From the NCBI GenBank assembly GCA_028408675.1, contig JAOOLH010000009.1, positions 1 to 33,173 of the forward strand: DNA of 33,173 nucleotides. Direction: 5' to 3'. The stretch comes from Prochlorococcus sp. AH-716-K03 (GTDB lineage Bacteria; Cyanobacteriota; Cyanobacteriia; PCC-6307; Cyanobiaceae). The notes beneath the pieces were generated by a model. That model worked only from the letters and a program-made list of their open reading frames with translations, did not search any database and was not told the origin of the DNA. Numbering within the stretch: the first letter of the stretch is position 1; every line of letters starts with the position of its first letter. The position numbers and the translations under genes are program-made. Below, one piece after another: positions 28,157 to 29,220 of this stretch.

Positions 28157-28315
28157 TTAGAATTTTTTTAATATTTTCCCGCAAAAACTAATAATATAAT
28201 AAACTAACCGTTCTAATAACATTAATTATGACAATATCAAGAACGTTATTTTTAGTACAGTTTTAAAACAGTGTCATGCCCTGATAAATAATTAATTAGG
28301 TTGATAATATTACAA

Positions 28316-28321
28316 TATAAT
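28316..28321 (+). promoter_or_regulatory. Candidate -10 box for the recombinase-like gene
   Basis: A perfect TATAAT lies 10 bases before the GTG at 28332. Transcription from it would start about four bases before that codon, giving an almost leaderless mRNA. That makes either leaderless translation from GTG or use of the later TTG at 28383 possible. Confidence 0.35.
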
Positions 28322-28331
28322 GTTCTAAAAA

Positions 28332-29006
28332 GTGTTTTTTTCACTTGTATTTGATACAGTTAAAACTATATGTATTAAAACATTGGCTTTTAAATTTAAA
28401 AGAAAACGTTTTCTTTTATCTGAAAAAAATAAAAAATGTAAATCTATCGGATATGCAAGGGCTATCGATAGTGAATTTGATTATTTAAAAGAACAAATAA
28501 ATTGCCTAAAAAATGAGGGTTGCAGTTTAATATTTTCTGAAATCATAAATTTAGATGAAGAAATAAAACCCGAACTTATAAAAGCTTTTAATTATTTGTC
28601 AAAAGGAGATGAATTAGTCGTTACGAAACTAGATCGAGCATTTTCTAATAGAAATGAATGTATAAAAACAATTCATAAACTCTTGAATAATGATATAAAG
28701 TTGAGGACTTTATCTGGTTTTTTATCTCCCAAACATTCATCAGAGATATCTTTGTCAGTCTTTAATATTTTATATGAGTTAGATAATTTAGATAATGAAT
28801 CCTTGGGAGAGAGGAAAAAAGAACTTATTTTGCAAAGAAGATTAAATGGAAATAATTTAGGTGGCAGACCGAAAATTAGTCCTTTAAAAGAATCACTAGT
28901 GATGAGATTACGTAATGAAGGTTGCTCATATAGATCAATTAGAACTCAAACGGGAATTGCTTTATCAACAATTAGAAGAATAATTTTAGATGGTGAAGCT
29001 AGCTAA
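28332..29006 (+). CDS. Serine-recombinase-like protein, catalytically degenerate, with intact DNA-binding helix-turn-helix
   Basis: The protein resembles the resolvase/invertase family along most of its length: GYAR at 40-43, GDELVVTKLDRAFS at 92-105, the long ISLSVFNILYEL helix, GERKKELILQRRLNGNNLGGRPK (159-181), then a helix-turn-helix at about 184-217 (LVMRLRNEGCSYRSIRTQTGIALSTIRRII). Aligned by eye on gamma-delta resolvase, the catalytic serine (Ser10) corresponds to Ile45, Arg45 to Lys79, and Arg71 to Ser105, whereas Arg8, Asp67 and Arg68 are kept. Strand cleavage is therefore unlikely. The start is GTG; there is no ATG before the conserved block, and a 39-residue basic, hydrophobic extension precedes it (next candidate TTG at codon 18). 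The frame is otherwise uninterrupted. A small gene follows after one base. I infer a DNA-binding role. Confidence 0.7.
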   Translation: MFFSLVFDTVKTICIKTLAFKFKRKRFLLSEKNKKCKSIGYARAIDSEFDYLKEQINCLKNEGCSLIFSEIINLDEEIKPELIKAFNYLSKGDELVVTKLDRAFSNRNECIKTIHKLLNNDIKLRTLSGFLSPKHSSEISLSVFNILYELDNLDNESLGERKKELILQRRLNGNNLGGRPKISPLKESLVMRLRNEGCSYRSIRTQTGIALSTIRRIILDGEAS

Positions 29007-29007
29007 T

Positions 29008-29220
29008 ATGAATAAAAAAGATCTTGAATACCTGATTAAAGAAAACCTTAAAGATACTGCATTGCGTATTCACGAATTAGATAATAAAGATAGAAATAGT
29101 TTAATAGCTGAATACAAAGAATGGATTCTGAATGACTTGAATTTTGATGAGGTTATGATGTTACCCTACGAAGCCTATACAAATAAATTAGATAGGGATT
29201 TCTTAGATGATTTAAATTAA
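29008..29220 (+). CDS. Small acidic protein of unknown function, downstream partner of the recombinase-like gene
   Basis: A 70-residue protein rich in Asp, Glu and Leu, with no cysteines and no membrane span. It looks fully helical (DLEYLIKENLKDTALRIHELDN, then NSLIAEYKEWILNDL) and ends in DRDFLDDLN. I do not recognise a family. I chose the ATG at 29008, one base after the recombinase stop; an ATG at 28990 in the same frame would overlap the upstream gene by 17 bases and is less likely. The tight spacing implies cotranscription and coupled translation. It is separated by two bases from the convergent beta-lactamase-like gene. Its acidic, helical nature would suit a protein-protein partner, but that is conjecture. 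Confidence 0.6.
   Translation: MNKKDLEYLIKENLKDTALRIHELDNKDRNSLIAEYKEWILNDLNFDEVMMLPYEAYTNKLDRDFLDDLN

Follow-up and report, generated by a model that had tools for sequence, protein, structure and literature searches.

A serine recombinase homologue without its catalytic serine at a conserved Prochlorococcus locus: a probable DNA-binding protein with candidate sites at its own promoter

The serR gene, its start codon and its operon

Within the window, by which we mean the whole 33,173-nucleotide stretch of Prochlorococcus DNA analysed, the frame 28332-29006 is open and contains a gene that we here name serR (Table 1). Residue numbers of its product follow the frame used in an earlier, sequence-only reading of this DNA, in which GTG 28332 is codon 1. 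That reading had described a resolvase-type frame, and database searches agree: the frame matches the Pfam family Resolvase (PF00239) over residues 39-174 with an E-value of 2.9e-12, PDB chains of a DNA invertase, Sin and Tn3 resolvase with E-values of 1.5e-11 to 7e-5, and PHROG 125, "DNA invertase", with an E-value of 1.6e-25. An AF2 model of SerR, predicted with a wider alignment as input, has a pLDDT of 75.3; an earlier model based on 37 close relatives was of low quality (pLDDT 53). The best structural match to the modelled catalytic domain is that of Sin (Z 15.2, rmsd 1.7 over 96 residues), and Tn3 and gamma-delta resolvase structures are also retrieved (5cy2, Z 14.7; 5cy1 and 1gdt, Z 14.4), with an rmsd to 5cy2 of 9.5 over 170 residues because the domains are oriented differently. 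The model contains a resolvase-fold N-terminal domain, a long E helix at residues 120-155 and C-terminal helices at 167-206 (pLDDT about 80-90), and a helix-turn-helix (HTH) with a GRP-type arm was found at the C-terminus, the GGRPK motif and the HTH columns being invariant or nearly so. Sequence and predicted fold alike place SerR among the small serine recombinases of the resolvase/invertase kind. Named loci with close serR relatives (best 80 of 182) come from records labelled Prochlorococcus or "uncultured Synechococcaceae", the strains MIT 9107 and MIT 9314 being represented.

Table 1. Features of the serR locus, with positions in the window
Feature	Position	Strand	Remarks
Half-site GTTCTAATAAC	28210..28220	+	Half-site search; aligned over 21 genus loci
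Conserved element with inverted half-site (AGAACGTTATT...)	28239..28260	+	Genome pattern search
Candidate operator TGTTCTAAAAAGTGTTTT	28321..28338	+	Contains GTG 28332; pattern search of genus genomes
Extended -10 promoter-like element TTGATACAGT	28351..28360	+	31-34 nt 5' of the start codon in 66/68
serR	28383..29006	+	207-aa resolvase-fold protein without catalytic serine; TTG start
Former catalytic domain	28434..28760	+	Alignments and residue counts
Ser10 position	28464-28466	+	Ile45
Arg45 position	28566-28568	+	Lys79
Arg71 position	28644-28646	+	Ser105
GGRPK arm and helix-turn-helix	28851..28988	+	Nearly invariant columns; dN/dS 0.02-0.05
sp76	29008..29220	+	Encodes 70 aa; downstream partner in the likely operon; ATG close behind the serR stop

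The start previously placed at GTG 28332 was rejected. All 68 orthologues in the genus carry an NTG at aligned codon 18 (65 TTG, 2 GTG and 1 ATG; displaced by a one-codon gap in L051 and L052), in 20 of them the reading frame is interrupted by a stop between the GTG position and codon 18, and the GTG itself lies inside a conserved promoter element. Judging from these alignments, residues 1-17 of the longer frame are probably not protein. Because of the universal NTG and the upstream stops, the gene was therefore taken to begin at the TTG. Downstream, the ATG of sp76 falls 0-4 nt past the serR stop codon in each of the 68 genus genomes (1 nt in 64 of them). Searches of Pfam, NCBIfam and PHROG assigned the sp76 product to no family above the cut-off; some of these genomes encode weaker relatives of it at other places.

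Active-site residues and selection on the two domains

The sequence-only reading had assigned Ile45, Lys79 and Ser105 to the positions of Ser10, Arg45 and Arg71, and alignment confirms all three replacements. Tyr6 (Y41), Arg8 (R43), Asp67 (D101) and Arg68 (R102) are kept in the SerR of the window. Across 68 genus genomes, which include the window's own and which, being related, do not give independent counts, the Ser10 position is Thr in 47, Ile in 19, Ala in 1 and Ser in 1, and the Arg45 position is Lys in every one. Arg71 is retained in 2/68, Tyr6 and Arg8 in 68/68, and Asp67 and Arg68 in 67/68 each, so that two of the four active-site arginines (Arg45 and Arg71) are replaced in nearly all members of the genus. 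The named loci (best 80 of 182) give a similar picture, with T in 52, I in 22, S in 4 and V in 2 at the Ser10 position and K in 80/80 at the Arg45 position. In L021 and in the four named loci with a serine at the Ser10 position (among the best 80 of 182), Arg45 is still Lys. The loss of Ser10 and Arg45 in the genus is nearly fixed.

In the alignment, the loop following R43 is one residue longer in SerR than in Sin, and a shifted serine, Ser47, was therefore tested as a substitute, a possibility that the sequence-only reading had raised. Residue 47 is a serine in 10 of the 68 genomes. When the search for a conserved substitute was widened to residues 44-49, any serine at all was present there in just 15/68, and a substitute nucleophile of this type was rejected.

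These residues bear on whether SerR is still a recombinase, either using Thr or another nucleophile or remaining active in the few strains with a serine (1/68 genomes, 4/80 named loci). Such a reading draws on the Thr or occasional Ser at the Ser10 position and on the retention of Arg8, Asp67 and Arg68. It has to contend, however, with the Ile found in 19 genomes, the window's among them, with the Lys that replaces Arg45 throughout both samples, with the survival of Arg71 in only two genomes, and with a gene order that is constant, no inversion at the locus having been seen in the 68 genus genomes. We judge it very unlikely that SerR still recombines DNA; its sequence predicts no strand cleavage or recombination. 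SerR is homologous to the serine recombinases and is not classed here as a working member, because two of the defining features tested, the catalytic serine and the full set of active-site arginines, are not preserved.

Selection was estimated as dN/dS by the NG86 (Nei-Gojobori) method on 67 of the 68 genus rows, L051 being omitted. The overall value for serR is about 0.2, not near 1, with 0.018-0.047 in the HTH and 0.20-0.31 in the former catalytic domain. Over residues 39-218 the estimate is 0.20 in pairs with dS of 0.05-0.3 and 0.16 in pairs with dS of 1.0-1.5; the corresponding values are 0.31 and 0.20 in the catalytic domain (39-140), and 0.018 and 0.034 in the HTH (174-218). The E helix of SerR lies at 0.16-0.39. 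Clades of relatives with intact catalytic residues have values of 0.02-0.11 in the catalytic domain, 0.06-0.37 in the E helix and 0.03-0.07 in the HTH, based on sets of 1 to 17 pairs, some of one to three. For the neighbouring genes the values are 0.08-0.09 (lipA), 0.14-0.18 (sp76) and 0.17-0.19 (bla-like). The catalytic domain of SerR is relaxed though not free, and the HTH is its most constrained part; the DNA-binding end had been described as well preserved, and this holds even with the Pfam model HTH_7 retrieved below the cut-off (E 0.09).

The relaxed catalytic domain, with its dN/dS above that of the intact clades, is what would be expected of a decaying relic whose function is fading and which is intact in appearance alone. 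Against this, the gene occupies the same place, in the order lipA-serR-sp76-bla-nlpC, in 66 of the 68 genus genomes (of the two exceptions, L087 starts at the contig edge and L051 is without lipA), its 207-aa frame has no internal stop in any of the 68 orthologues, and selection has been retained over the whole protein and above all in the HTH. Of the 266 genus genomes, 210 also contain a match to the family (83 of the 87 good ones), counts obtained with a paralogue as the query and including some other family members. Within the genus, the dN/dS values and the synteny largely refute decay of serR, as the sequence-only reading had anticipated in stating that this did not look like simple decay, and we regard the relic as extremely improbable.

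Half-sites and a candidate operator upstream of serR

Upstream of serR in the window, half-sites of the form GTTCYR lie at 28210, 28241 and 28322. Across 67 loci of the genus (L087 omitted), the 230 bp upstream of the gene contain 1.99 such half-sites on average, versus 0.38 in 1,006 other windows of those loci, and two or more are present in 43/67 upstream regions versus 52/1,006 other windows. Means by genus subgroup range from 1.76 to 4.0, compared to 0.16-0.22 in shuffled sequences (66 loci; L051 and L087 omitted). With up to 3 mismatches allowed, the conserved element containing the inverted half-site has matches in 25 of the 60 genomes searched; each of these 25 belongs to this genus, and 2 have a second, 3-mismatch match elsewhere. 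The reversed control yielded 2 matches in the 60 genomes.

The 3' end of the candidate operator lies 16 nt ahead of the -10 hexamer, so that the operator would cover the -35 region. The pattern TGTWCYAWWAAGTGTKTT, derived from these same promoters, occurs in 147 of the 266 genus genomes, exactly once in each and never twice, with 0/266 for the reversed-pattern control, and in the genomes compared (a subset of the 147) it precedes serR. The other 119 genomes have no exact match, and many of them are incomplete. Half-site enrichment together with an operator beside an extended -10 points to likely binding sites at the gene's own promoter, as in Tn3 TnpR. The suggestion that the neighbouring motifs are the protein's own sites is thus supported by their enrichment and conservation.

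A broad regulator or nucleoid protein acting through many weak sites would fit the strong constraint on the HTH, and half-sites this short might recur. Yet when up to 2 mismatches were allowed in the window's own genome, 12 operator-like matches were retrieved versus 18 for the reversed control, the sole exact match being the serR promoter, and no more than one exact site per genome was found across the 266, a statement that holds for patterns of the tested stringency. At that stringency many genomic targets were rejected, and we consider a broad role quite improbable. The occurrence of the promoter pattern at most once per genome makes a local autoregulator, as far as pattern searches can indicate, more likely than an architectural protein or a broad regulator. 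The sequence-only reading had proposed a former recombinase turned into either a DNA-binding regulator or an architectural protein; residue loss, selection on the HTH, synteny and the half-sites support the DNA-binding protein, and the count of one pattern per genome speaks against the architectural or broad role.

Relatives with and without catalysis, and a likely role for SerR

Among 62 loci read outside the genus, 44 encode a full or near-full catalytic set (YRSRDRR in 38 and YRSRSRR in 6), and none has the lipA-sp76-bla neighbourhood within the stretch fetched. Identity of the genus SerR to these intact relatives (for example L047 and L064) averages 71% over the HTH and 33% over the catalytic domain (12 genus × 44 intact rows). 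GTTCYR half-sites are also found upstream of intact relatives (29 loci in the shuffle comparison; 44 in the 26-bp profile and other-window comparisons). Many of these have repeats GTTCCAATAAGG...TGTTCGGTTG just upstream, leading into an extended -10, and 42/44 have a site above the cut used. Within the fetched stretches of the 44 loci, the full site occurs at the own promoter alone, except in L043, which has one more on the opposite strand at a distance of 3 kb. A 26-bp profile of the intact relatives' sites gave modest scores on the genus promoters, the real score being reached by 16% of shuffles on average, and the half-sites are therefore common to the genus and the intact relatives, while the full site is not.

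Other genera of the family also contain copies in which catalytic residues are lost and the DNA-binding end is preserved. For ten non-genus loci with several losses, identity to the intact ones is 74% over the HTH and 41% over the catalytic domain. Upstream half-sites number 1.83, versus 0.36, in twelve non-genus loci whose catalytic residues are changed (nine have no Ser10). Nine loci (L062, L067, L068, L114, L116, L124, L127, L128 and L130) partly share one neighbourhood, comprising an AIR-synthase-like gene, a gene for a 470-aa protein without a Pfam match and a 3'-5' exonuclease gene. Ser10 is missing in seven of the nine; L114 and L124 retain it and have lost other residues. The intact copies L043, L121, L066 and L056 adjoin members of the same AIR-synthase-like/exonuclease neighbourhood, and because one neighbourhood is occupied by intact copies in some genera and by catalysis-lost ones in others, this suggests that recombinase catalysis was lost in place in some lineages.

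A tree of 72 rows was built by a quick method, with 12 of the 68 genus rows representing the genus and the truncated or broken L057 and L069 dropped; 30 of its 69 inner branches are open and long branches meet, making it weak at depth. Parsimony on this tree requires a minimum of 6 state changes, "dead" being defined as the loss of Ser10, Arg8 or Arg68. Two separate losses of the serine are firm, one in the genus clade and one in L031, which lies within a supported intact clade. L040 and L108, within another supported intact clade, have kept the serine and lost other residues. The Ser10-less L049, L062, L067, L068, L116, L127, L128 and L130 sit on long branches with unsure joins.

Two loci on viral contigs match the HTH alone, and the viral contigs yielded no match to the alignment of intact relatives. 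Similar to phage DNA invertases such as Gin and Pin in its PHROG 125 assignment and its matches to 126 phage records (28-30% identity in the 20 rows listed), SerR differs from them in lacking the catalytic serine and in having no invertible segment in sight. Neither the phage records nor, among the matches listed, the plasmid records include one of at least 60% identity. The window's own genome also encodes a distant resolvase/invertase-type frame of 196 aa (L438, C1:114283-114879, minus strand; 28% identity), which retains GYFRCS and LSRLSR; the frames around it look phage-like.

Intact relatives do occur within the genus, close relatives of L064 (68-100% identity) being present at 9 places in 8/266 genus genomes, and the three with residues read are YRSRSRR. 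With an HTH nearly identical to that of intact relatives and half-sites in common with them, SerR might serve in trans at their res-like sites as an accessory or opposing subunit, aiding the synapse or blocking the sites. Such relatives are rare in the genus, however, whereas SerR is widespread, and the full site differs between the two; a role of this kind is, in our view, unlikely.

The best explanation, and one we hold to be probable, is that SerR is a recombinase turned into a catalysis-free DNA-binding protein that most likely autoregulates its two-gene operon. SerR dimers would bind GTTCYR half-sites through the C-terminal HTH without cutting, and bound SerR would cover the -35 region beside the extended -10. 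The serR-sp76 operon would thereby be held at a set level, most likely through repression, for which Tn3 resolvase offers a precedent; an operator over the -35 region could also serve activation. As described in PMC7157771, binding of TnpR at res autoregulates tnpR and tnpA of Tn3. SerR would thus perform the second job of Tn3 resolvase, regulation of its own promoter via res, with the first job gone. Similar to Tn3 and gamma-delta resolvase (TnpR) in its predicted fold, its C-terminal HTH and the placement of its putative sites near its own promoter, SerR differs in the replacement of Ser10, Arg45 and Arg71 and in its location at a conserved chromosomal locus with one operator and no transposon seen around it. 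A structure described by its title as a serine recombinase-DNA regulatory complex (2r0q) has been solved, which we take to be Sin at site II without cutting. Sin retains its active site and performs both jobs, in contrast to SerR, whose catalytic residues are lost.

Transposases that have lost their activity and been retained as host regulators are known. Within the open-licence literature, outside which most subscription journals lie, we found no report of serR or of a serine recombinase that had lost catalysis and been retained as a regulator, nor any precedent for a catalysis-lost serine recombinase retained across a whole abundant ocean genus. The label "resolvase" or "recombinase family protein" would exaggerate the activity of such a gene. 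A wider idea, which we offer as speculation and think unlikely, is that cyanobacteria of this family repeatedly convert recombinases in place to catalysis-free binders with their sites kept, and that the standing copy of this genus also silences the sites of related recombinases; if true, retained specificity would let SerR occupy those sites and keep the related recombinases silent. The existence of intact and catalysis-lost relatives with common half-sites permits a direct test of the passage from a cut-and-join enzyme to a plain DNA-binding protein.
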